This document shows, piece after piece, positions 13,712-28,699 of a stretch of DNA of 49,833 nucleotides. The position numbers and the translations under genes were made by a program. This stretch comes from Sphingomonadaceae bacterium PASS1 (lineage in GTDB: Bacteria; Pseudomonadota; Alphaproteobacteria; Sphingomonadales; Sphingomonadaceae). Location of the stretch: positions 1 to 49,833 of the forward strand of contig NKIR01000016.1 in assembly GCA_002255985.1 (NCBI GenBank). Reading direction: 5' to 3'. Position 1 is the first letter of the stretch, and the number at the start of each line of letters is the position of its first letter. The notes beneath the pieces were generated by a model. The model did no database searches. It saw nothing but the letters and a program-made list of their open reading frames with translations, and was not told the DNA's origin.

Positions 13712-15235
13712 CTAGCCAAGCGTTTCGAGAAATTGCTGTGCCTGACCACGAAGCGCAACTTTATCGGCCTGCGCCATACGGTCCCAGTTTTTATATGGCA
13801 TAGCCATGCGCGGGTTTTTGCGCAGTCTATCTTCGTTACGCGCAATAAATTCCCAATAGAGCGCATTGAACGGACACGCCTTGGGCCCAGTTCTTTGTTT
13901 CACATCATAACGGCAGCTGGAGCAATAATCCGACATGCGGTTGATATAGGCGCCACTGGCCGCATAGGGTTTTGACGCGAGCATGCCGCCGTCTGCAAAC
14001 TGGCTCATGCCAAGGCTGTTTGGCAATTCGACCCATTCATAAGCGTCGGCATAAACGGCGAGATACCATATATGCACTTCGACCGGGTTGATGCCCGCCA
14101 GCAGGGCGAAATTGCCTGTAATCATTAGCCGCTGGATATGATGGGCGTAGGAATATGCGATCGTCTGATCGACTGTTTGCGATAGGCAATGCATGTCGGT
14201 TTTGCCGGTCCAATAGAACTCCGGCAGCGGCCGTGCGGCGCCAAGGGCATTGTTCTCCACATATTGCGGACCAGCATGCCAATAAATGCCGCGCACATAT
14301 TCGCGCCAACCAATGACCTGACGAATAAAGCCTTCGGCCGCGTTGATGGGCACTTTGCCGGCCTGATATTGCTCTTCGACCGCACGGCATAATTCGAGCG
14401 GATCAAGCAATCCGGTGTTGATGTAAGGCGACAAAATCGAATGCCATAAAAATGGCTCGCCGGTGAGCATTGCGTCCTGATAATCGCCAAAGGACGGCAG
14501 GGCATGTTTCAGGAAATGTGCTTGCTGTTTCAACGCGTCGGCGCGCGTGACCGCAAAGCCGAATTTCGCGGTCTGGCCCATATTGGTCGCGAATTTTTCT
14601 TCGACCATTTGAATAACATTCTGCGTGATATCATCCGGCGCGAAACGCAGTGGTTGTGGCATCGCCAGATCACGCTTGGCCGGCTTGCGGTTTTCCGCGT
14701 CAAAATTCCATTGCCCGCCTACGGGTGCATCGCCAACCATCAGCAGCCCTGATTTCCGCCGCATGTCGCGATAGAAATATTCCATGCGAAGCTGCTTGCG
14801 ATCCTTGGCCCAGCTTTCGAATTCGGCATGGTCACACAAAAAGCGGTCGTCGCTGCGTATCTCTACGGGCACATCAAAGCGGTCGGTCCAGCTATCAAGC
14901 ATGGCCTTCACCCGCCACTCGCCAGCTTCCGTGACACAAATGGCGGATGCGTTATGGCGTTCTAATGCGCGGGCGAGTTCTCCGGTAAAACTGCCGCTGT
15001 TTTCAGGATCGGTCAGCTTCACATAGTCGACGGTCCATCCGGCTGAACGCAGGTCTTCGGCATGGTGGCGCATCGCCGATAATATGAACGCCATTTTGGA
15101 TTTGTGGTGCGGCACATAGGTCGTTTCTTCGTTGAGTTCGGCCATCAAAATGACACAGGCGCCTTTGTCCTGCCCCGCCAATGACGCGAGCGCGTGGCTC
15201 AGTTGGTCGCCGAGTACCGGAATTAATGTCGTCAT
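13712..15235 (-). CDS. Fe-S type photolyase/cryptochrome (FeS-BCP / PhrB-like)
   Basis: A 507-residue flavoprotein of the iron-sulfur bacterial cryptochrome and photolyase group; Agrobacterium PhrB of this group repairs (6-4) photoproducts. The N-terminus MTTLIPVLGDQLS is typical of the 'deoxyribodipyrimidine photolyase-related' family. The FAD-binding C-terminal domain holds FIRQVIGWREYVRGIYW and HHIQRLMITGNFALLAGI. Near the end, YCSSCRYDVKQRTGPKACPF provides three of the four 4Fe-4S cysteines; the fourth should be the Cys in ELCRAVEEQ, well upstream. Thirty-one extra upstream codons are open but unlikely. It lies divergent from queF with 164 bases between starts. Confidence 0.9.
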   Translation of the reverse strand: MTTLIPVLGDQLSHALASLAGQDKGACVILMAELNEETTYVPHHKSKMAFILSAMRHHAEDLRSAGWTVDYVKLTDPENSGSFTGELARALERHNASAICVTEAGEWRVKAMLDSWTDRFDVPVEIRSDDRFLCDHAEFESWAKDRKQLRMEYFYRDMRRKSGLLMVGDAPVGGQWNFDAENRKPAKRDLAMPQPLRFAPDDITQNVIQMVEEKFATNMGQTAKFGFAVTRADALKQQAHFLKHALPSFGDYQDAMLTGEPFLWHSILSPYINTGLLDPLELCRAVEEQYQAGKVPINAAEGFIRQVIGWREYVRGIYWHAGPQYVENNALGAARPLPEFYWTGKTDMHCLSQTVDQTIAYSYAHHIQRLMITGNFALLAGINPVEVHIWYLAVYADAYEWVELPNSLGMSQFADGGMLASKPYAASGAYINRMSDYCSSCRYDVKQRTGPKACPFNALYWEFIARNEDRLRKNPRMAMPYKNWDRMAQADKVALRGQAQQFLETLG

Positions 15236-15860: not shown

Positions 15861-17423
15861 CTATTTAAACAGGCTTCCCAAGATTCCCCGAACGAGGGAC
15901 TTGCCGAACGATCCCGCCACTTGGCGACCAATTGATGTTGCAGCGGAGCGCGCTGCCGATTGCAACATCTTGTCCGCAATGCTCGGTTTCGCAGCTTCAC
16001 GCGCATCTGCAGCCTGCTGACGTGCCAATTCCCTGGCGGCAATGGCATCCGCCTTGGCCTGTTCCTTTGCGGCGGCTGCGGCTTGCTTGTCGGCTGCAAC
16101 CATCGATTTGGCTTCCTCGGCAGCGGCAGCGGCCTGCGCACTTTTTGCCGCTAATATTTCCTCTGCCGATTCACGGTCGATCAGCATGTCATATTTGTCG
16201 CCAATCGCATCAGTTGTAATCATCACGCCGCGTTCTTGTGGGCTTAGCGGGCCGACGCGGCTTGCCGGTGCCTTAATCAGCGTACGTTGGACAATAGAGG
16301 GCGACCCGTCAGGCTGAAGCAAAGATACCAAAGCCTCACCTATTTTAAGTTCGGTGATGACCTGTGCGACATCAAGATTGGGATTGGGCCGGAAGGTGTC
16401 TGCTGCCGATTTTACTGCCTGCTCATCGCGCGGGGTAAAGGCGTTCAGCTTGTGCTGAATGCGGTTATTGAGTTGGGCTGCGACCGTATCTGGAATATCG
16501 ATCGGGTTTTGCGTGATGAAATACACGCCGACACCCTTTGACCGGATGAGCCGGACGACCTGTTCAATTTTCTCAAGCAGGGCTTTTGGCGCGTCATTGA
16601 AAAGCAAATGCGCTTCGTCAAAAAAGAAGACCAGTTTTGGTTTTTCCGGATCGCCAATTTCGGGCAGCGTTTCAAACAATTCGGAGAGCAACCACAACAG
16701 AAACGTGGAATACAGCTTTGGGCTGGACATGAGCTTATCAGCGGCAAGGATATTGACGACACCGCGACCGCTGTCGTCGCAACGGATCAGGTCTTCAAGC
16801 TCTAGCGCGGGTTCGCCGAAGAAATTCTCTCCGCCCTGCGCGCGCAGCTGGAGCAGCGAACGCTGAATACTGCCCACCGATTGCTTGGAAATATTACCAT
16901 ATTCGAGCGTCAATTCGTCCGCGCGCTCGCCACAGCTTACGAGCATCGCCTGCAGATCGTCCAGATCCAGCATCAGCAAGCCATCTTTGTCGGCGACGTG
17001 AAAGGCGATTGTCAAAACGCCTTCCTGGACTTCGTTCAAGTCCATCAAGCGTGCGAGCATCAACGGGCCCATTTCGGAAACCGTTGTCCGGACAGGGTGA
17101 CCTTGCTCGCCAAACAGGTCCCAGAATTGCGATGGATTGTCCTTATATACCCAATCTTGCTGGCCGATTTCCGCCGCGCGTCCGGCAAAAATCTCATGCG
17201 TTTTGCTTTGCGGTGAACCTGCCATTGCCAGGCCGGACAAGTCGCCTTTCACATCGGCGACAAAGGACGGTACGCCCGCCGCGGATAATCCCTCGATGAT
17301 ACCTTGCAGGGTAACGGTCTTTCCGGTGCCGGTCGCGCCAGTGATCAGGCCGTGGCGATTTGTCCGTTTCAGGTTGAGCAGTTCGGGCCCGTTTGCGTGC
17401 TTACCGATAAAGATGCCGTCCAT
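15861..17423 (-). CDS. DUF853 / YjgR-like HerA-FtsK-type ATPase
   Basis: A 520-residue P-loop ATPase of the DUF853 group. The Walker A motif is ITGATGTGKTVTLQ near residue 30; the Walker B-like region is LVFFFDEAHLLFNDAPKALLEK, and IRSKGVGVYFITQNPIDIP is the conserved sensor region of HerA/FtsK-like motors. The C-terminal 120 residues are Ala/Glu/Lys-rich coiled coil with a final Gly/Phe tail (KSLVRGILGSLFK). E. coli YjgR is uncharacterised, so only ATP-driven DNA or protein translocation can be guessed. It is a single gene with no NurA-like nuclease beside it. Confidence 0.88.
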   Translation of the reverse strand: MDGIFIGKHANGPELLNLKRTNRHGLITGATGTGKTVTLQGIIEGLSAAGVPSFVADVKGDLSGLAMAGSPQSKTHEIFAGRAAEIGQQDWVYKDNPSQFWDLFGEQGHPVRTTVSEMGPLMLARLMDLNEVQEGVLTIAFHVADKDGLLMLDLDDLQAMLVSCGERADELTLEYGNISKQSVGSIQRSLLQLRAQGGENFFGEPALELEDLIRCDDSGRGVVNILAADKLMSSPKLYSTFLLWLLSELFETLPEIGDPEKPKLVFFFDEAHLLFNDAPKALLEKIEQVVRLIRSKGVGVYFITQNPIDIPDTVAAQLNNRIQHKLNAFTPRDEQAVKSAADTFRPNPNLDVAQVITELKIGEALVSLLQPDGSPSIVQRTLIKAPASRVGPLSPQERGVMITTDAIGDKYDMLIDRESAEEILAAKSAQAAAAAEEAKSMVAADKQAAAAAKEQAKADAIAARELARQQAADAREAAKPSIADKMLQSAARSAATSIGRQVAGSFGKSLVRGILGSLFK

Positions 17424-17617
17424 ATATGATCCGCCCTTGCACGTTAGAATGTTACAACGACAACTATGGAGTGAGTGTTAGGTCAAGTAAATCCTGGAAT
17501 GGATTGTAAGCTGCGCCCCGAATACGCGCTTTCCTCTCGTCGACAACATCGAATCATTCGTCGCAAAAATCACCTTTACCGGTGACAGATCGCCCGCGAG
17601 GTATCTATGATAGCTTC

Positions 17618-18751
17618 ATGGCTCAAATGTTTTCGATGACCACGAAGCGTGTGTATAAAGCTGGCCAAACAGGCCTTGCTTCTTTGGCGCTGTTGTCCGT
17701 TTTATCGGGGTGCGTATCCGCGCCAGCGCGTCGGGGACCTGCTTTGCCGACAGCACAAGCCCCAGCGCCAAGCCGCGCAGCTGCAGCAGTTGTGGCGCCC
17801 GCACGCCCCGCAGTGGGACGGCCGCCTCTAGGCCTTGAAAATCTGATTCAAGATCAATGGCGTTTGTTTCCGGGGCGGACCGGTGTTGCCATTATGCGCG
17901 TTGATGGCGGTGAGTGGGTTTTAGGCCGCAGGATGGATGAGTTGTTTCCCCAACAAAGCGTATCCAAAACCTGGGTTGCGCTCACCGTGTTGGATATGGT
18001 CGATCAAGGAAAGCTTCGCCTCGACCAGAAAGTACGGATCACGCGAGATGATCTGGCGGTTTTTCATCAGCCAATTCGTGATCAGGTGATCGCCAATGGC
18101 AGCATTGAGGTGTCGGTCCTCAATCTGTTGGAGCAGGCCATTCGCGCGAGTGACAATACGGCCAATGACTCGCTGCTGCGCACTGTAGGCGGCCCGCAAG
18201 CGGTAACCAGTTTTATCGTACGCAAGAATTTGGGCGCGATCCGTTTTGGGCCGGGCGAACGCGCGCTACAAAGCGGCATTGCCGGACTCGACTGGAAACA
18301 GGAATATTCAATTGGCCAGCGCTTTTATGCTGCGCGCGATGCCGTGCCGTTGGCGAGCCGCAAGGCTGCGCTTGACCGCTATCTGAATGATCCAATCGAT
18401 GGAGCAAGCCCGCAAGCCATTGTCCGCGCATTGGCGAGGCTCGCCAAAGGCGAGCTGTTGTCGGCGTCTTCAACGCGTCTCATGCTCGATATCATGTCGC
18501 GGACGTCAAGTGGCCCTAACCGGTTGAAGGCTGGCGTGCCTGCGGGCTGGAGCTTTTTGCACAAGACAGGAACGGGACAGGTGTTGTCGCCGGTGTCCAC
18601 GGGATATAATGATATCGGGATTATGACCGCGCCAGATGGCACACGTTACGCTGTCGCAGTGATGATGGGCAGCACGACCGCGTCCATTCCGCAACGGATG
18701 ACGTTCATGCAATTTGTATCTCGCGCCGTGGCTTCATACCACCAGCACTGA
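17618..18751 (+). CDS. Class A beta-lactamase-like serine hydrolase, lipoprotein
   Basis: A 377-residue protein with an N-terminal lipoprotein signal ending LLSVLSGC, so it is probably membrane anchored in the periplasm. A Pro/Ala-rich linker follows. The penicillin-recognising fold is shown by QQSVSKTW (S-x-x-K, catalytic Ser and Lys), ASDNTANDSLL (the S-D-N motif) and LHKTGTGQ (K-T-G). The general-base Glu of true class A enzymes cannot be placed with certainty (GPGERALQ is one candidate), so antibiotic hydrolysis is not proven; an enzyme acting on cell-wall peptides is as likely. GTG 17582 and ATG 17636 are alternative starts. Confidence 0.82.
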   Translation: MAQMFSMTTKRVYKAGQTGLASLALLSVLSGCVSAPARRGPALPTAQAPAPSRAAAAVVAPARPAVGRPPLGLENLIQDQWRLFPGRTGVAIMRVDGGEWVLGRRMDELFPQQSVSKTWVALTVLDMVDQGKLRLDQKVRITRDDLAVFHQPIRDQVIANGSIEVSVLNLLEQAIRASDNTANDSLLRTVGGPQAVTSFIVRKNLGAIRFGPGERALQSGIAGLDWKQEYSIGQRFYAARDAVPLASRKAALDRYLNDPIDGASPQAIVRALARLAKGELLSASSTRLMLDIMSRTSSGPNRLKAGVPAGWSFLHKTGTGQVLSPVSTGYNDIGIMTAPDGTRYAVAVMMGSTTASIPQRMTFMQFVSRAVASYHQH

Positions 18752-18879: not shown

Positions 18880-19119
18880 TTACTTCGCAGCTTCTTTCGC
18901 AGCGTCTGCAGCAGGTGCAGCAGCGGCAGCGTCTGCAGCTGGAGCAGCAGCGTCTGCAGCAGGAGCAGCAGCGTCAGCGCCTTCTACAGCAGCGTCAGCA
19001 GCTTCAGCAGGAGCTTCTGTGGTTGCTTCAGTTGCTTCTGTGGTTGCTTCTTCAGCACCTGAGCAAGCAGCCAAACCGAGCGAAGCGGCAAGAACGAGAG
19101 ATACAGCAATTTTCTTCAT
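18880..19119 (-). CDS. Small Ala-rich low-complexity lipoprotein
   Basis: A 79-residue protein. The signal peptide MKKIAVSLVLAASLGLAAC ends in a clear lipobox (LAAC), and CSG at the mature start has no Asp at +2, so the outer membrane is the likely site. The mature part is almost only Ala, Glu, Thr, Pro and Asp: an EATTEATEATTEAP stretch followed by ADAAAPAA-type repeats. It resembles small abundant entericidin- or linker-like lipoproteins, but no function can be assigned. A GGGG sequence precedes the ATG at good spacing and a strong terminator follows, so it is a well-bounded single gene. The repeats make its length prone to change. Confidence 0.8.
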   Translation of the reverse strand: MKKIAVSLVLAASLGLAACSGAEEATTEATEATTEAPAEAADAAVEGADAAAPAADAAAPAADAAAAAPAADAAKEAAK

Positions 19120-19312: not shown

Positions 19313-19340
19313 TTGACTTGATATAAAGAATTCTTTATAT
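19313..19340 (+). promoter_or_regulatory. Promoter with perfect 20-bp palindrome before the methionine-cycle operon
   Basis: TTGACT (19313-19318) and TTATAT (19335-19340) are 16 bases apart and resemble a sigma-70-type promoter. ATATAAAGAATTCTTTATAT (19321-19340) is a perfect palindrome covering the spacer and the -10 box. A dimeric ArsR-type repressor bound here would block polymerase; the first gene of the operon encodes one. Transcription would begin near 19347, almost at the ATG (19350). Confidence 0.7.
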
Positions 19341-19349
19341 GATGCCGAG

Positions 19350-20330
19350 ATGATCAATTTACTTAACATCATGCGGGCTCTAGCCGACCCGACCCGGCTT
19401 CGAATCGTTTTTCTTGTGCTTAGGCTTGAACTGTCGGTGGGCGAGTTAGTGCAGATATTGGATCAAAGCCAGCCCCGCGTTTCCCGGCATATCCGTATAT
19501 TGGATGAAGCTGGATTGTTGGAGCGACGCAAAGAAGGAAGCTGGGTTTTCCTCCGGCCGGGCGCTGTTTTGGAGGATGGACGCCTCACTTCATTGCTGAA
19601 AGAAGCGGATGTTTCGCAGGCCAAGGCATTTCAAAAGGATCTGGCGCGGCTGGACGAGGTCCGCAACGCTCGCACGAATATGGCAGCATCCTATTTTGCG
19701 GCACATGCAGAAGAATGGGACTTCCTGAGATCGCTGCATGTTGCCGATTCGGAAGTTGAGGCGAAGATTGCGCAGATTTTGCATAGCGCGCCATTGGGCC
19801 GTGTATTGGACGTCGGTACAGGGACTGGCCGCATTGTTGAATTGTTCGCGGAGAGCGCAAGCCGGTTTGTCGCTTTGGACAATAGCCCCGAAATGTTGCG
19901 GCTTGCCCGCGCAAAAATAGCGAATTTCAGCGCCGATATCGCGAGCAAGGTTGAAATTAAATTGGGTGACTTCAACATGCTCCCCGTCGGCGATGGTGAG
20001 TTTGACACCGTCATTTTCCACCAAGTGCTGCATTACGCCCAAGACCCCGAGGCAGTCATTGCCGAAGCCATCCGGACAGTTGCGGACGATGGGCGGCTCG
20101 TGATCGTCGACTTCGCGGCCCATGACCATGAAGAACTCCGCACCGTCCATGCCCATGCCCGGCTTGGCTTTACCGATGAATTTATGCGGAATGCGTTCTC
20201 TGCACATGGCCTGCAGATGGTGCATCAGGTCGCACTTGAGTCCGGTGAACTCATTGTAAAAGTGTGGATGGGGCAAAAGCTATCGTTCGCCACCCCGCGT
20301 CCGAAAAACAACTTAAGGATTGTTGCATGA
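19350..20330 (+). CDS. ArsR-family regulator fused to a SAM-dependent methyltransferase
   Basis: A 326-residue two-domain protein. Residues 1-75 are an ArsR winged helix (LADPTRLRIVFLVLRLELSVGELVQILDQ, recognition helix SQPRVSRHIRIL). No metal-binding Cys pair is present. Residues about 110-300 are a class I methyltransferase with motif I VLDVGTGTG (152-160), the acidic VALDN, and FDTVIFHQVLHY. ArsR-type regulators of methionine metabolism such as SahR sense S-adenosylhomocysteine; here the fused domain could be the SAH/SAM sensor. That reading is inferred from the fusion and from the following metF and metH genes. Its stop overlaps the metF start (ATGA). There is no Shine-Dalgarno sequence before the ATG. 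Confidence 0.85.
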   Translation: MINLLNIMRALADPTRLRIVFLVLRLELSVGELVQILDQSQPRVSRHIRILDEAGLLERRKEGSWVFLRPGAVLEDGRLTSLLKEADVSQAKAFQKDLARLDEVRNARTNMAASYFAAHAEEWDFLRSLHVADSEVEAKIAQILHSAPLGRVLDVGTGTGRIVELFAESASRFVALDNSPEMLRLARAKIANFSADIASKVEIKLGDFNMLPVGDGEFDTVIFHQVLHYAQDPEAVIAEAIRTVADDGRLVIVDFAAHDHEELRTVHAHARLGFTDEFMRNAFSAHGLQMVHQVALESGELIVKVWMGQKLSFATPRPKNNLRIVA

Positions 20331-21268
20331 TTCTCCCGTTTGCACAGATGCAGGAAGCCAGCCGGGCGCTGGCCGCGCCCCTTTTTGCCGGTCTTGCCGG
20401 TGATTGTGAAATCAGCTTCGAATTTTTCCCGCCGAAAACCGAAAAAATGGAAGAGCAGCTTTGGGATTCGGTTGTCACGCTTGCCCCGCTTGCCCCGCGC
20501 TTTGTGTCGGTCACTTATGGTGCTGGCGGCACAACGCGTGAGCGGACGCACAACACCGTCGCCCGCATTGCGCGCGAAACCAATATTCCAGCCGCAGCGC
20601 ATTTAACCTGCGTCGAAGCATCAAAGGGCGAAATTGCCGACGTTGCAAATGCCTATTGGGAGGCCGGTGTCCGGCACATCGTTGCGCTGCGCGGAGATGC
20701 ACCGGGCTCGGACGGTAAATTTGTTCCGCATCGCGACGGCTATGCCAGTGCCGCGGAATTGGTCGAAGGGCTGCGTAAGCTCCACCCGTTTGAGATATCG
20801 GTCAGTGCCTATCCCGAAACCCACCCGGAAGCCCTGTCCGCTGCAAGCGATATCGATTTTTTGAAGCGCAAGCTTGATTCCGGCGCGAGCCGGGCAATCA
20901 CACAATTTTTCTTTGAACCTGAAACATTCTTCCGTTTCCGCGACGCCGTCGCTGCCGCAGGTGTCGATGCCGAAATCGTGCCGGGTATCATGCCGGTTTC
21001 AAATTTTGGCGCTATCACCCGCATGTCCGCTATGACTGGCACCGCAATTCCGGTGTGGATGGCGCATTTGTTTGAAGGGCTGGATGACCATCCGTCTGCA
21101 CGGCAACTTGTCGCGGCCACCGTAGCAGCCGAAATGTGCCGCAGATTATATGCGGGCGGTGTGCGCGATTTCCATTTCTACACGCTCAACCGCGCCGAGC
21201 TGTCTTATGCAATTTGTCATTTGCTTGGAAAACGGCCCTCTGGCGCTGCGCAGGAGCAAGCGGCATGA
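20327..21268 (+). CDS. metF: 5,10-methylenetetrahydrofolate reductase
   Basis: MetF makes 5-methyltetrahydrofolate, the methyl donor for methionine synthase. The 313-residue TIM-barrel protein has the family's early motif ISFEFFPPKTEKMEEQLW with the catalytic Glu, then FVSVTYGAGGTTRERT, HLTCVEA, HIVALRGDAPG (FAD contacts) and AITQFFFEPETFFRF. FHFYTLNRAELSYAICHLL is the usual C-terminal end. The ATG at 20327 overlaps the regulator's stop; 21 upstream codons in frame are therefore not used. The stop overlaps the ATG of the first metH gene, so three genes are translationally chained. Confidence 0.96.
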   Translation: MILPFAQMQEASRALAAPLFAGLAGDCEISFEFFPPKTEKMEEQLWDSVVTLAPLAPRFVSVTYGAGGTTRERTHNTVARIARETNIPAAAHLTCVEASKGEIADVANAYWEAGVRHIVALRGDAPGSDGKFVPHRDGYASAAELVEGLRKLHPFEISVSAYPETHPEALSAASDIDFLKRKLDSGASRAITQFFFEPETFFRFRDAVAAAGVDAEIVPGIMPVSNFGAITRMSAMTGTAIPVWMAHLFEGLDDHPSARQLVAATVAAEMCRRLYAGGVRDFHFYTLNRAELSYAICHLLGKRPSGAAQEQAA

Positions 21269-22311
21269 CCCCGCGTGAGGCATTTGTTGCAAGAGCGGCC
21301 AAGCAAATTTTGGTCTTCGACGGCGGCTATGGGACGGCCATTCAGGGTTATAAATTATCCGAGGCTGACTATCGCGGTTCATTGGAACTGACCCACGATC
21401 AAAAGGGTAATAACGACCTATTGTCGATCACACGGCCTGACGTGGTGGGTGCCATCCATAGCGCCTATCTGAGCGCTGGGGCGGACATGATTGAAACCAA
21501 CACTTTCAGCGCCACGAAGATCAGCATGGCTGATTATGGCTGCGAACATTTGGTCCAGCAATTGAACATCGATTCGGCAAAACTCGCGCGCGCCTGTTGT
21601 GACGCCGCAGAAGCCGAAGACGGCAAGCGGCGCTTTGTTGCGGGCTCGATTGGGCCAACGAACAAAACATTGTCATTGTCGCCAGACGTCAACGACCCCG
21701 GCTATCGCGAAATCGACTTTGATTATCTCAAAGGCGTCTATCGCGAACAATGCGACGCGCTCATCGAAGGCGGGGTAGATTTCCTGCTGATTGAAACGAT
21801 ATTCGACACGCTAAACGCCAAATGTGCAGCCATGGCGGCGCAAGAAGCCGCACTGGCATCGGGCAGGGACGTGCCCTTGATGATATCCATGACGATCACC
21901 GATATGGCCGGTCGCAATCTTTCGGGGCATACCGTTGAGGCATTTTGGGCCGCGATCCGGCACGCCAAACCACTTACCATCGGGTTGAATTGCTCGTTCG
22001 GCGCAGACCTATTGCGTCCACATTTGGCCGCTTTGTCAAAGCAAGCCGATGCACTTGTCATGGCCTATCCCAATGCGGGCCTGCCCAATGATCTTGCCGA
22101 ATATGACGAACTGCCCGAAACGACGGCGCAGCTGATTGGCCAATGGCTGGATGACGGGCTGGTCAACATTGTCGGTGGTTGTTGCGGCACCACGCCTGCG
22201 CATATCGCCGCGATTGCCAAGGCCGTTGACGGCCGCGCCCCGCGCAGCATCCCGCAGCCACAAGTGGTCACGCGGCTCGCTGGCCTCGAACCCTTCATCA
22301 TGGCCGCCTGA
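21265..22311 (+). CDS. metH: Methionine synthase, homocysteine-binding part (split MetH, first gene)
   Basis: A 348-residue homocysteine S-methyltransferase domain, equal to the first quarter of E. coli MetH. It binds zinc and activates homocysteine. Conserved parts are [54 protein letters not shown], the zinc ligand Cys in [16 protein letters not shown] and the two zinc Cys in [12 protein letters not shown]. All three ligands are kept. The remaining domains lie in the next gene, 23 bases on. The same split occurs in other alphaproteobacteria. The start at 21265 forms ATGA with the metF stop; a longer frame exists but overlaps metF. Confidence 0.95.
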
Positions 22312-22334
22312 ACTCCTTAAAGCTGAACATAGAT

Positions 22335-24953
22335 ATGACATCCTCCTCCTCCCGTTTCGTCAACATCGGTGAACGTACGAACGTCACCGGCAGTGCCAAG
22401 TTCAAGAAGCTCATTCTGTCCGGCGATTATGAAGCCGCTGTCGAAGTCGCGCGCGACCAGGTCGAAAATGGCGCGCAGATTATCGACATCAATATGGATG
22501 AAGGTCTGCTCGACGCGCATGAGGCGATGACCACGTTCATCAAACGAATTGCTGCCGAACCAGACATTGCGCGCGTGCCGTTGATGATCGACAGTTCCAA
22601 ATGGAGCGTCATTGAGGCGGGGCTGAAATGCGTTTCGGGCAAGCCCATCGTGAATTCGATTTCGATGAAAGAAGGCGAAGAAGCCTTTTTGCATCATGCG
22701 CGGCTGTGCATGGCCTATGGCGCTGCTGTTGTCGTGATGGCGTTCGACGAGACAGGCCAGGCGGACACCAAAGAGCGCAAGGTCGAAATCTGCAAACGTG
22801 CTTATGACTTGCTGGTCGGCATTGGTTTCCCGCCCGAAGATATCATTTTCGATCCCAATATTTTTGCGGTGGCAACGGGGATTGAAGAGCATAATAATTA
22901 TGGCGTCGACTTTATCGAGGCGTTGAAGGAATTACGCGTCCTATGCCCGCATGCCCATTATTCGGGCGGCCTTTCCAACCTGTCCTTTTCCTTCCGCGGT
23001 AACGAACCTGTCCGCCGCGCGATGCACTCGATATTCTTATATCATGCTATCCCTGCCGGCCTAGACATGGCGATCGTCAACGCAGGGCAGTTGGATATCT
23101 ATGACGATATTGATTCGGAACTGCGGGTGGCGTGCGAAGATGTAATCCTCAACCGCGACCCCGATGCCACCGAGCGCCTCATCACGCTGGCCGAGAAATA
23201 TCGCGGTACCGACGTAGCGCAGGAAAAGGCGGAGGCCGAGTGGCGCGGCTGGGAAGTTAAGAAGCGCCTTGAGCATGCCTTGGTCAAAGGCATCGATGCG
23301 CATATTGTCGATGACACCGAAGAAGCGCGGCTTGCGATCAAGGCCGCTGGCGGTAGGCCTATCGAGGTTATCGAAGGCCCATTGATGGACGGCATGAATG
23401 TCGTTGGCGACTTGTTCGGGTCGGGTAAAATGTTTTTGCCGCAGGTCGTGAAATCGGCGCGCGTCATGAAAAAAGCGGTCGCGCATCTGTTTCCCTATAT
23501 CGAGGCCGAGAAAGAAGTCGGCGCGAAGGGTAAGGGCAAGATCATCATGGCCACCGTCAAGGGCGACGTGCATGACATCGGCAAGAATATCGTTGGCGTT
23601 GTGCTGCAATGTAATGGTTTTGAGATTGTCGATCTGGGCGTGATGGTCCCGTGGCCAGAAATATTGAAGGCGGCGGTCGAACATGATGCCGACATGATCG
23701 GGCTATCGGGCCTGATCACACCTTCGCTGGACGAGATGGTCACCGTCGCTGAAGAAATGCAGAAGGCGGGCATGACAATGCCGTTGATGATCGGCGGCGC
23801 AACCACGTCCAAAACGCATACGGCGTTACGGATCGAGCCTGTCTATTCGGGCCCCGTCATTCATGTGCTCGATGCATCACGCGCTGTCGGTGTTGCAGGC
23901 ACATTGGTCAGCGATACCATGGCCGAAAAGTTCGTCGCTGACACCCGCGCCGAATATAGCCACATCCGCGATGCCCGTGCTGGCAAGACCGCAAAGCCAT
24001 TGGCTTCGCTGGATGAAGCCCGCGCCAATGCGTTCGAGATTGACGAGACGCTGAAGCCTGCCCCGCCATTAAAGCCTGGCGTGCATGTCTATGATGATTG
24101 GGACCTTGCAGATCTGCGCAATTATATCGATTGGACGCCGTTTTTCCGCGCATGGGAATTGCATGGCAACTACCCCGCCATTTTGACCGACGAAGTCGTT
24201 GGCGAAAGTGCCACCAGCCTGTTTGCCGATGCCAACGCGATGCTCGATAAAATCGTCAGTGAAAAATGGCTGCGCGCAAAGGGCGTTGCTGGGCTGTGGC
24301 CATGCTGGCGCGATGGCGACGATGTTGTCGTCTATTGCGAAAAGACCGAGACCCATATTCGCCTGCCGTTCCTGCGGCAGCAAATCGCCAAGCGCGAAGG
24401 CAAGGCGAACATGTGCCTGGCCGATTTCATCAGCCGCGACGGCGACTGGATTGGCGGCTTTGCCGTAACCACCGGCCATGGCATCGGCGCGCATTTGGCG
24501 CAGTTCAAAGCCAATATTGATGACTATTCCGACATCATGTTGAAAGCGCTCGCCGACCGTCTGGCCGAAGCCTTTGCTGAGCGGATGCACGAGCATGTCC
24601 GCACAACATTATGGGGTTATGCGCCCGACGAGCAGTTCACCATGGAGGCGCTCAACCGTGAGGAATATCGCGGCATCCGGCCCGCACCGGGCTACCCCGC
24701 ATGTCCGGACCACAGCCTGAAGCCCATATTGTTCGACCTGCTGGATGCCACCCATAAAACGGGTATCACCTTAACGGAAAGCTTTGCCATGTTGCCGACC
24801 GCAGCGGTCAGCGGCTTTTATTTCGGGCATCCTCAAGCGGAATATTTCGGCGTTGCGCGGATTGGCGAAGATCAGGTTGCGGACTATGCCACACGGCGTG
24901 AACTCGATTTGGATCGGGCGCGGCAGTATCTGAGGCCGAACCTCAACGAATGA
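22335..24953 (+). CDS. metH: Methionine synthase, pterin/cobalamin/activation part (split MetH, second gene)
   Basis: An 872-residue protein carrying the other three MetH modules. The pterin-binding domain starts at once ([20 protein letters not shown]; later [18 protein letters not shown]). The cobalamin part has a helical cap and [17 protein letters not shown], where D-x-H-x-x-G supplies the His that binds cobalt. The activation domain has [18 protein letters not shown], the SAM-binding R-x3-G-Y-P-A-C-P-D-H signature, and ends near [10 protein letters not shown]. It cannot work alone on homocysteine and needs the previous gene's product. The first ATG (22335) is five codons before the conserved FVNIGERT. 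Confidence 0.96.
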
Positions 24954-25047
24954 TCGGCGCACTGTCTCTCCCGGGGACGCGCCAATCAATGCTTGGTTAA
25001 TCGGCTGGATTTATTGTGCGGCATGGGGTTAATTCAACACCGAAGTG

Positions 25048-25113
25048 CTGAGCCTGTCGAGGCACGTCTTTCGGGATTGCGCTCAGCTGAGAAGCGCCCT
25101 TCGACAGGCTCAG
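25048..25113. repeat. REP-like inverted repeat element
   Basis: CTGAGCCTGTCGAGG (25048-25062) and CCTTCGACAGGCTCAG (25098-25113) are inverted copies differing by one inserted base. Between them lies the perfect palindrome CTCAGCTGAG (25082-25091). The motif CCTTCGACAGGCTCAGG is a widespread extragenic repeat in sphingomonads as I recall it. It lies between metH and the beta-helix gene. Confidence 0.75.
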
Positions 25114-25143
25114 GGCTACGGTAAATTTTACGGACGAATGCCC

Positions 25144-26962: not shown

Positions 26963-28699
26963 TCACCGGCCCTGCGCACGCCACCTGCGTACGACGCGGT
27001 CCAGTATTTCCGGTTCGCCGCCAGTTTCCAGCCATAGCTGGCTGAACAGCGGATCTTCCGATGCTGGGCGTTTTTTCGATTCCAGATGATCGAGCGAGAC
27101 ACGTATTGGAATGCTGACACCTTCGCCGCAGATGATGCATTCGCGGTTACGCAAGGCGGGGATGGCATCGAGGAACCCACGCGCACCTTCCGGCATTGCT
27201 GCGCGGACAAATGCCTGATCGCGTTCGTTGTTCAATCGCATCGAAATGATCGTGCCGCATTGCGAGAGCACGCCTTCGGCCAAATCGGATGGACGCTGGG
27301 TAATCAGGCCAAGCGACACGCCATATTTACGGCCTTCCTTGGCAATCCGTTCAAGGATGGAGCGAACTGCGCTGTCTTTGGAAACGCGATCCGAAGGAAT
27401 GTACCGGTGGGCTTCTTCACAAACGAGCAGGATTGGGCGCTGCAGTTCGTTGCGCGACCAGCTGGCAAAGTCAAACACCAGACGGGACAGAACCGCGACG
27501 ACTGTCGAAGTGATGTCGGCGGGTACGCCGGACACATCGATAATCGAAATCGGTTTGCCATGTGATGGCATGCGGAAAATCTTGGCGACAAACTCGGCCA
27601 TTGTGTCGCCGACCAGCATTCCGGAAAACATGAAGTTATAGTGTGGGTCAGCTTTCAGTTCGTCAATTTTGCTCTTCAGCCGCATGAACGGCGCGGACGA
27701 CGTCACCTTGTCGAGCTTGCCCATTTCATTCTGGATGATGTTGGTCAAGTCAGACAACAAATAGGGGATAGGTGCATCTACCGTTAGCTTACCGATGGTT
27801 TCGGCCATCCGGTTTTTGGCGCGTGCCTGCAACAGGCAGCGGGCGAGAATATCTGCGTCAATTTGCTTGTCGTCGCCGGTGGATGTGACGAACACTTCGC
27901 AATGCTCTGCAAAGTTCATCATCCAATAGGGCATGGCCAGGTTATGCACGTCGAACAACGCGCCATTATGTTTGAACGCCGCACTATATTCGCCATGGGG
28001 ATCAATCATGACGATATGGCCTTCGGGCGCGATATCGCAGATCTTGTGTAGAATGAGAGCTGCACTCGTTGATTTACCGGTACCTGTCGAACCCAAAAGC
28101 GCGAAATGCTTGCCGAGCATTGCGTCTACATACAGCGTCCCGCGAATGTCCTTGGTCGGGAAAACGGTGCCGATTTCAACATGCGCTCGGGCGTCTGCAG
28201 TATAGATTTGCTTCATGTCCAAGCTTGACACGGCATATACTTCGCTGCCGGGGATGGGATAACGCGTCACACCGCGGCGGAAATTGTAGATCTTGCCGGT
28301 GAGGCGTTCCTCGCTGCCTTCGCCGAGAAAGTCGACTTGCGCCATGATCACGCCGTGGTCTCGTTCGTGTATGCGTTGCGTTCGGATGCTTGCGAGCAGC
28401 CAGCTATTGCCAACACGAATCTTGATTTGGCTGCCCACCTGTCCGGCCATCGCAATGCTTGGATCGCTATGCGACATCAGCTTCGTCAATATGCTGGCAT
28501 CTAGGGTAAGTTGAGAACCTGATCCGGCAACTTCCATGACAAAGCCGATATGGTGCAGTGCAGGGCCGTTTATAGGCACGCCGCCGGTGCATGTCGCCGC
28601 GCCAGATTTATCGCTTGTCGCAGGGGTAGCTTTTGCCACTTGTTGTCCCTGCTCACTTGGTTCTGCGGATGTAAACTGCCGATGCCCTGTCATATCCAT
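26963..28699 (-). CDS. HerA-like ATP-binding protein
   Basis: A 578-residue hexameric-type translocase of the HerA/FtsK branch. An unusual polar head of about 50 residues is followed by a HAS-barrel-like region (TLDASILTKLMSHSDPSIAMAGQVGSQIKI) and the Walker A loop FALLGSTGTGKSTSAALIL. ILLVCEEAHRYIPSD is Walker B with the catalytic Glu, and EGRKYGVSLGLITQRPSDLAEGVLSQC is the sensor segment of HerA proteins. In archaea HerA works with the nuclease NurA; none is next to it here. Bacterial relatives also act in anti-phage systems paired with SIR2 or other effectors, but the neighbours (TIGR02186/TSUP pair, secreted protein) do not suggest that. Confidence 0.88.
   Translation of the reverse strand: MDMTGHRQFTSAEPSEQGQQVAKATPATSDKSGAATCTGGVPINGPALHHIGFVMEVAGSGSQLTLDASILTKLMSHSDPSIAMAGQVGSQIKIRVGNSWLLASIRTQRIHERDHGVIMAQVDFLGEGSEERLTGKIYNFRRGVTRYPIPGSEVYAVSSLDMKQIYTADARAHVEIGTVFPTKDIRGTLYVDAMLGKHFALLGSTGTGKSTSAALILHKICDIAPEGHIVMIDPHGEYSAAFKHNGALFDVHNLAMPYWMMNFAEHCEVFVTSTGDDKQIDADILARCLLQARAKNRMAETIGKLTVDAPIPYLLSDLTNIIQNEMGKLDKVTSSAPFMRLKSKIDELKADPHYNFMFSGMLVGDTMAEFVAKIFRMPSHGKPISIIDVSGVPADITSTVVAVLSRLVFDFASWSRNELQRPILLVCEEAHRYIPSDRVSKDSAVRSILERIAKEGRKYGVSLGLITQRPSDLAEGVLSQCGTIISMRLNNERDQAFVRAAMPEGARGFLDAIPALRNRECIICGEGVSIPIRVSLDHLESKKRPASEDPLFSQLWLETGGEPEILDRVVRRWRAQGR

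Follow-up and report, generated by a model that had tools for sequence, protein, structure and literature searches.

A probable SahR-type regulator and its palindromic operator in a methionine-cycle operon of a sphingomonad

What does a regulator sense when its ArsR-type DNA-binding domain is fused to a methyltransferase fold, and does it control the methionine-cycle genes that follow it? This question is raised by a locus in the window, the whole stretch of 49,833 nt (contig NKIR01000016.1, Sphingomonadaceae bacterium PASS1) that was analyzed. An earlier note, made by reading the raw sequence from first principles, proposed that the fused domain senses SAH or SAM and that the protein, which would be no metal sensor, controls its own methionine-cycle operon. 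The proposal is supported by the analysis presented here; the mechanism, already known, is a re-derivation of the published SahR system.

Organization of the operon

Domain searches found the genes anticipated from the raw sequence, a winged helix of the ArsR type joined to a SAM-type methyltransferase fold, followed by metF and a split metH. The features of the locus are:

19313–19318, + strand: −35-like box TTGACT, read from the sequence, with a TT[GT]AC counterpart in relatives
19321–19340, + strand: putative SahR operator, perfect 20-bp palindrome ATATAAAGAATTCTTTATAT, exact in the sequence and used in the genome-wide motif search
19336–19341, + strand: putative −10 TATATG, a weak hexamer, placed by its 17-base spacing to the −35-like box
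About 19347–19350, + strand: probable transcription start, at the start codon, placed by spacing
19350–20330, + strand: sahR, regulator ORF (326 aa) and first gene of the operon, with HTH_5 and Methyltransf_11 domains
20327–21268, + strand: metF, 5,10-methylenetetrahydrofolate reductase, TIGR00676 above cut-off, MTHFR domain
21265–22311, + strand: metH1, the half of the split methionine synthase that binds homocysteine, S-methyl_trans domain
22312–22334, no strand: intergenic gap of 23 bases between metH1 and metH2, read from the sequence
22335–24953, + strand: metH2, the other half of the split methionine synthase (pterin, cobalamin and activation domains), with Pterin_bind, B12-binding and Met_synt_B12

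Genes sahR, metF, metH1 and metH2 form a genuine four-gene operon, a standard case of the published SahR system. They had been described as chained by ATGA overlaps, the last one of 23 bases. This holds for sahR/metF (20327–20330) and metF/metH1 (21265–21268), which overlap by 4 bases each, but metH1 stops at 22311 and the first base of metH2 is 22335, which makes the last junction a gap of 23 bases.

The regulator

SahR proteins consist of an ArsR-type HTH and a SAM-methylase-type effector domain. The window protein contains an ArsR-type winged helix (about residues 1–70), a long linking helix (residues 92–118) and a sensor domain (about residues 110–312) that is predicted to be a complete class I SAM/SAH-binding methyltransferase fold; in a search with the whole protein, structure neighbours matched mostly over the methyltransferase domain. 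Outside the SAM motifs, residues H228, D254, F255, H258, R264 and L272–F274 were invariant in a 100-row alignment, and F255 was altered in four loci (L069, L082, L090 and L096) of a wider set of 47. Homology to SahR was judged against proteins of Desulfovibrio sp. A2 (35 % identity over 271 residues, spanning both domains), N. vulgaris (34 %) and Oleidesulfovibrio (33 %); the Desulfovibrio sp. A2 gene adjoins ahcY and lies under a related palindrome.

The regulator not only lacks a metal-binding Cys pair, as the earlier note had remarked, but has no cysteine at all, which rules out cysteine-based metal sensing of the ArsR/SmtB type. Cysteine is likewise absent from 11 of the 47 fetched relatives and, counting the window, from 24 of the 100 rows of the alignment. 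The ArsR/SmtB family also has metal sites made without cysteine. An NCBIfam metalloregulator model scored 75.5 on HTH residues 6–69 (cut-off 55), and this score above cut-off is a point against the SahR reading.

Operator, promoter and leader of sahR

The perfect palindrome that had been placed on the −10 box is exact at its coordinates and, given the positions of TTGACT, the 17-base spacer and TATATG, occupies most of the spacer and of the weak −10. The sahR promoter was not among the sites reported by a generic promoter scan of the window. A TT[GT]AC −35-like box lies directly 5′ of the operator in 99/120 relatives (45/60 in the window's family, with which L096, a second copy in genome G123, was grouped, and 54/60 elsewhere). 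A palindrome near the regulator start was found in 46/47 loci at up to 4 mismatches to 16 fixed positions, and in 35/47 at up to 1. In the window's family the stretch from the −35-like box to the start codon would be taken up by the operator, so that repressor, polymerase and first codon would all fall within about 40 bp. Judged by position, the sahR message is probably leaderless in that family, with its 5′ end at, or a few bases from, the AUG. A literature search returned nothing on leaderless sahR, or on SahR in sphingomonads, among the matches listed.

Riboswitch control of the operon was rejected: an Rfam search identified no riboswitch in the window at gathering scores and none at metK or ahcY at E 0.1, the SAH riboswitch RF01057 included, and the predicted fold of the 80 nt from position 19341 was no better than those of shuffled sequences (z −0.08). 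A genome-wide SAH riboswitch search of seven genomes matched no control genome and is not counted as evidence of absence.

Regulon and conservation

At up to 3 mismatches, the palindrome occurs in three places of the 3.07-Mb genome, versus about 0.015 expected by chance from composition: at the sahR operon, 5′ of metK and 5′ of ahcY, the last two being genes near which the earlier note had proposed to look for it. The reversed palindrome, searched for as a control in the same genome, occurs in none. These three sites are the core SahR regulon.

In those genomes of the order that reach 90 % completeness, the palindrome, called at up to 1 mismatch, was present in 118 of the 120 with the regulator and in none of the four without it. 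The two exceptions with a regulator were G025, whose best site has 4 mismatches, and G038, with 2. Five genomes below 90 % completeness (G037, G095, G098, G102 and G106; 66–77 % complete) have the palindrome and no regulator match, which may be explained by assembly gaps. Gene order, a lack of conservation of which had been named beforehand as a possible refutation, was kept in 45/47 loci. The amino acid at residue 49, in the recognition helix (K/R versus G/A), matched the presence of A at position 8 of the operator in 119/120 rows, but the tree contains only 2 and 3 changes, so that this covariation was rejected as proof of cognate binding; no use was made of a Fisher test applied naively to 122 related rows.

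Proposed mechanism and alternatives

SahR of Desulfovibrio alaskensis was reportedly characterized by Novichkov et al. in 2014, and Desulfovibrio SahR is said to come off its operator on binding SAH. Papers that refer to this work also cite the response, and it is the Desulfovibrio work that leads us to choose SAH over SAM as the ligand. By analogy with that protein, from which repression, induction by SAH and the accompanying loss of DNA binding are taken, the operon is very probably self-regulated by SahR through the 20-bp palindrome in response to SAH, with metK and ahcY included. A SahR dimer on the palindrome would cover spacer and −10 and block transcription of the operon, and SahR would also act at the matching metK and ahcY sites. 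The methyltransferase-like domain would be the sensor: accumulated SAH would enter the SAM/SAH pocket, SAH-bound SahR would release the DNA, and AhcY, MetF, MetH and MetK would be made together, so that SAH is cleared, homocysteine remethylated and SAM regenerated. The proposal of the earlier note as a whole is supported by the palindromes at ahcY and metK, the joint absence of regulator and operator in near-complete genomes, the gene order, the complete SAM/SAH-binding fold, the absence of cysteine and the lack of an Rfam riboswitch match at the sites searched.

Conservation of fold and motifs cannot separate SAM from SAH, and SAM might act as a co-repressor, as in a SamR-like system, instead of SAH as an inducer. 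SamR of the Xanthomonadales, a distant homologue with about 30 % identity to SahR, adjoins metH1-metH2 as sahR does here (PMC4239095); since SamR may sense SAM, the ligand could differ between relatives. However, SamR has a 24-bp palindrome and metK as its sole SAM-cycle target (PMC4239095), whereas the perfect symmetry of the window palindrome extends over 20 bp and no further and a site lies in front of ahcY, and SahR, with a 20-bp palindrome, was published for 7/7 genomes of the Sphingomonadales (Leyn et al., 2014, PMC4239095), making SAM co-repression highly improbable. It is very unlikely, too, that the domain is a trigger enzyme that methylates some substrate while the regulator reads out the reaction, an idea not strictly exclusive of SahR. 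The complete SAM fold with its motifs and the invariant residues beyond them would suit an enzyme, but these residues could just as well relay a signal to the winged helix, F255 varies in the wider set of loci, and the genetic context suggests neither substrate nor partner gene.

Arsenite has also been claimed as a substrate, again not strictly to the exclusion of SahR, for the bifunctional regulator and arsenite methyltransferase ArsR^M of Brevundimonas sp. M20, whose gene order (arsR^M, metF, HMT-1, metH) is identical to that of the window (PMC10190100). This 2023 paper reports that the protein binds the promoter in EMSA, that it raises the MIC of arsenite in E. coli and that it is active in a methyltransferase kit assay, for which the legend names controls lacking SAM, arsenite or enzyme; its main text mentions SahR zero times, and its arsenic site derives from modelling and docking. 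In the window protein, Q225 and Y229 have a spacing like that of the docked Q224 and Y228 and may be their counterparts. At position 229, H, Y and F each make up roughly one third of the 100 aligned rows, and the proposed arsenic residue C134 has no counterpart in the cysteine-free window protein. Near the C134 region, whose column is approximate, cysteines occur in 5 rows at column 139, 8 at 141 and 32 at 149. An arsenite-methylating regulator is extremely improbable for the window. The activity reported in Brevundimonas (PMC10190100) does imply that the domain may be more than a sensor; a joint reading, in which sahR of the window's family has no leader and is tied to metF through the ATGA overlap, the sensor domain is catalytically active, and SahR and ArsR^M are a single sensor-enzyme, is unlikely.

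Comparison with known systems

Reading the raw sequence from first principles thus recovered a true regulatory circuit, one already published. What is added to the known SahR system is the probably leaderless sahR of the window's family and the double naming of SahR and ArsR^M, by which one gene order carries two names and two functions. The family-specific, probably leaderless layout offers a simple system in which repression and leaderless translation meet at one promoter.

ArsR^M (PMC10190100) shares with the window its gene order, its fusion architecture and a palindrome with CTTTATATAAAG, but differs in the proposed arsenic residue C134; judged by description, both are probably one orthologous group under two names. 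In other Proteobacteria the same signal is read by the SAH riboswitch (RF01057), an RNA instead of a protein. With SahR the window shares the HTH and methylase-type domains, the 20-bp palindrome, probable self-regulation and a regulon of sahR, ahcY, metK, metF and metH. The alpha-type operator of the window, ATATAAAG-N4-CTTTATAT, differs from the ATCAAG-N4-CTTGAT of Desulfovibrio sp. A2, and sahR heads metF-metH1-metH2 in the window but ahcY in Desulfovibrio; a further difference is the probably leaderless sahR of the window's family.

Organization of the operon and its surroundings

The operon comprises four genes, delimited by ORF calls and domain searches:

19350-20330, + strand, sahR, regulator of 326 aa with HTH_5 and Methyltransf_11 domains
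20327-21268, + strand, metF, MTHFR domain
21265-22311, + strand, metH1, S-methyl_trans domain
22335-24953, + strand, metH2, Pterin_bind, B12-binding and Met_synt_B12 domains

From the distribution of domains between the last two products, the split in metH falls just behind its homocysteine domain. The earlier note had all four genes chained by ATGA overlaps, the last by 23 bases; this holds for the first two junctions, with 4-base ATGA overlaps, but the third is a 23-base gap. The perfect palindrome that it described, the putative operator, is exact at 19321-19340. The nearest organism-named protein in the database listing (96 % identity) is labelled Sphingorhabdus sp., and the family of the window (f1) is thus presumably Sphingomonadaceae.

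Just 3′ of the operon, an imperfect inverted repeat (25039-25122; 22-nt arms, 86 % complementary) surrounds CCTGTCGA/TCGACAGG and resembles a dispersed repetitive element, for which it is a candidate only. The operon is flanked on each side by a gene for a HerA-type ATPase (15861-17423 and 26963-28699, - strand); the two genes differ from each other (HerA_C and DUF87) and are ca. 10 kb apart. Upstream there are also a short lipoprotein-like ORF with a LAAC box, the rest being nearly all Ala, Glu, Thr, Asp and Pro repeats (18880-19119, - strand), a gene for a photolyase-related protein (Pfam DPRP; 13712-15232, - strand), and one for a serine beta-lactamase-family protein (Pfam Beta-lactamase2; 17582-18751, + strand) with the motif strings SVSK, SDN and KTG.

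Operator sites in the PASS1 genome

A search of the genome (3,072,882 bases in 30 contigs, 95.9 % complete) allowing up to three mismatches located the palindrome at three places, and its reversed control at none; ca. 0.015 places are expected by chance, by a simple composition estimate using the G+C of the window and ignoring neighbour effects. One of the three is the site in the window; of the genes near which the earlier note suggested looking, metK and ahcY have the other two. That of metK has one mismatch and ends 29 bases before the ATG, and that of ahcY has two and is directly 5′ of an in-frame TTG, a putative start codon. The one C-terminal MetE domain match of the genome (Pfam Meth_synt_2, 46.6 bits) is on a contig that holds none of the three sites.

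Conservation in the order Sphingomonadales

Among 147 genomes of the order, the regulator (E ≤ 1e-20) was found in 135 and the palindrome, with at most one mismatch, in 137, the reversed control appearing in 11 by our own reading of the table. The palindrome occurred in 132/135 genomes with the regulator versus 5/12 without it (p 3.4e-7); these five are 66-77 % complete. In the 124 near-complete genomes (≥90 % complete, ≤5 % contaminated), 120 carry the regulator, 118 of them with the palindrome, which is absent from the other four (G019, G030, G100 and G128; Fisher p 1.6e-6). Both p values are optimistic because the genomes are related. Of 30 palindromes with fetched loci, 22 lie before metK, six before the regulator, one before ahcY and one before none of six tested genes.

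Gene order was compared in 47 hand-picked loci, mostly one per genus, covering 46 of the 135 genomes with the regulator. Its loss in relatives would have spoken against the proposal of the earlier note, but regulator-metF-metH1-metH2 stand in this order on one strand in 45 loci; the remaining two both belong to genome G123, which has two copies. An operator-like site within 400 bases upstream of the regulator matched the 16 fixed positions with at most four mismatches in 46/47 loci and with at most one in 35/47.

In three of the near-complete genomes lacking the regulator (G019, G030 and G100), metH1 is missing as well (E ≤ 1e-30). Each of the three has four MetE-domain matches, which include an adjacent pair in G030 and another in G100, and a switch to the B12-independent enzyme is therefore likely. 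The fourth, G128, retains metF-metH1-metH2, without regulator or palindrome.

In genome G025, loci L069 and L113 have upstream of the regulator a variant near-perfect palindrome, ATATAAGAATTTTCTTATAT, in place of the usual operator, and a recognition helix reading VSQHVARL versus the usual VSRH..IL; operator and regulator might have changed jointly. Of the two sahR-like copies of G123 (L084 and L096), one has no recognisable operator or met genes, and the other has an operator, with metF adjoining on the opposite strand.

Promoter layout and a probable leaderless sahR

Promoter layout was examined in 137 loci, representing 122 distinct regulators, 120 of them with an operator. A TT[GT]AC box lies just 5′ of the operator in 99/120 (45/60 in the window's family and 54/60 in other families), indicating that the operator spans the core promoter in widely differing sequence. 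Start codons were looked for on the downstream side of the operator alone, and the one closest to the aligned first residue was taken. On this basis, the start lies at most 13 bases past the operator in 52/60 loci of the window's family and 1/60 of other families; since the loci are related, the 52 cases reflect one or a few evolutionary events. Shine-Dalgarno-like strings were found in 1/60 and 23/60, respectively. A 17-base spacer would place the predicted message start at or beside the sahR start codon, suggesting that sahR is probably leaderless in this family. Leaderless transcripts are a topic of start-site mapping papers on alphaproteobacteria.

Comparison with SahR and ArsR^M

The founding paper on SahR is that of Novichkov et al. 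2014. The window regulator was compared directly with Desulfovibrio sp. A2, a genome found via cytochrome c3. Its best match there (35 % identity over 271 residues) is encoded directly 5′ of ahcY, with ATCAAG-TTTT-CTTGAT upstream, a pattern with one further exact occurrence in that genome, before a metF; metK has no exact site of this pattern, and the three further places found with one mismatch lack any of six tested proteins. This operator and that of the window type share AT[A/C]AAG-N4-CTT[T/G]AT. Identity to the window regulator is 33 % for a protein named as Oleidesulfovibrio and 34 % for one named as Nitratidesulfovibrio vulgaris. According to papers that cite Novichkov et al. 2014 (PMC8877191, PMC7950407), Desulfovibrio SahR binds operators of SAM-cycle genes in a SAH-dependent manner.

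The same gene order (arsR^M, metF, HMT-1, metH) is described for Brevundimonas sp. M20, whose ArsR^M is reported to bind the promoter in EMSA and is claimed to methylate arsenite, with a proposed arsenic site formed by C134 and Q224-L229 (PMC10190100). The main text of that paper contains no occurrence of "SahR", "Novichkov" or "Leyn". The window protein has no cysteine at all, in agreement with the earlier note, which had seen no metal-binding Cys pair. Cysteine is likewise missing from 11/47 fetched relatives and, counting the window, from 24/100 alignment rows, so that an arsenic site built on cysteine cannot be a general feature; part of the alignment does have cysteines near the SAM motif (e.g. 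8/100 rows at column 141 and 32/100 at column 149). The figure legend of the ArsR^M kit assay lists controls lacking SAM, arsenite or enzyme (PMC10190100), so residual methyltransferase activity may be present. We consider it likely that SahR and ArsR^M are one and the same.

Leyn et al. 2014 (PMC4239095) describe SahR as a regulator that responds to SAH and occurs in alpha- and deltaproteobacteria as well as in two gammaproteobacterial groups. They give it a 20-bp palindrome and, as its core regulon, sahR, ahcY, metH, metH2, metF and metK, and their Table 1 has it in 7/7 Sphingomonadales; elsewhere it is listed in 62 genomes from nine groups (PMC5343134). In outline, the mechanism proposed in the earlier note, a self-regulated methionine-cycle operon that senses SAH or SAM, is correct, and it has been published before under the name SahR. 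To this known system, the probable lack of a leader on sahR and the likely equivalence of SahR with ArsR^M are small additions.
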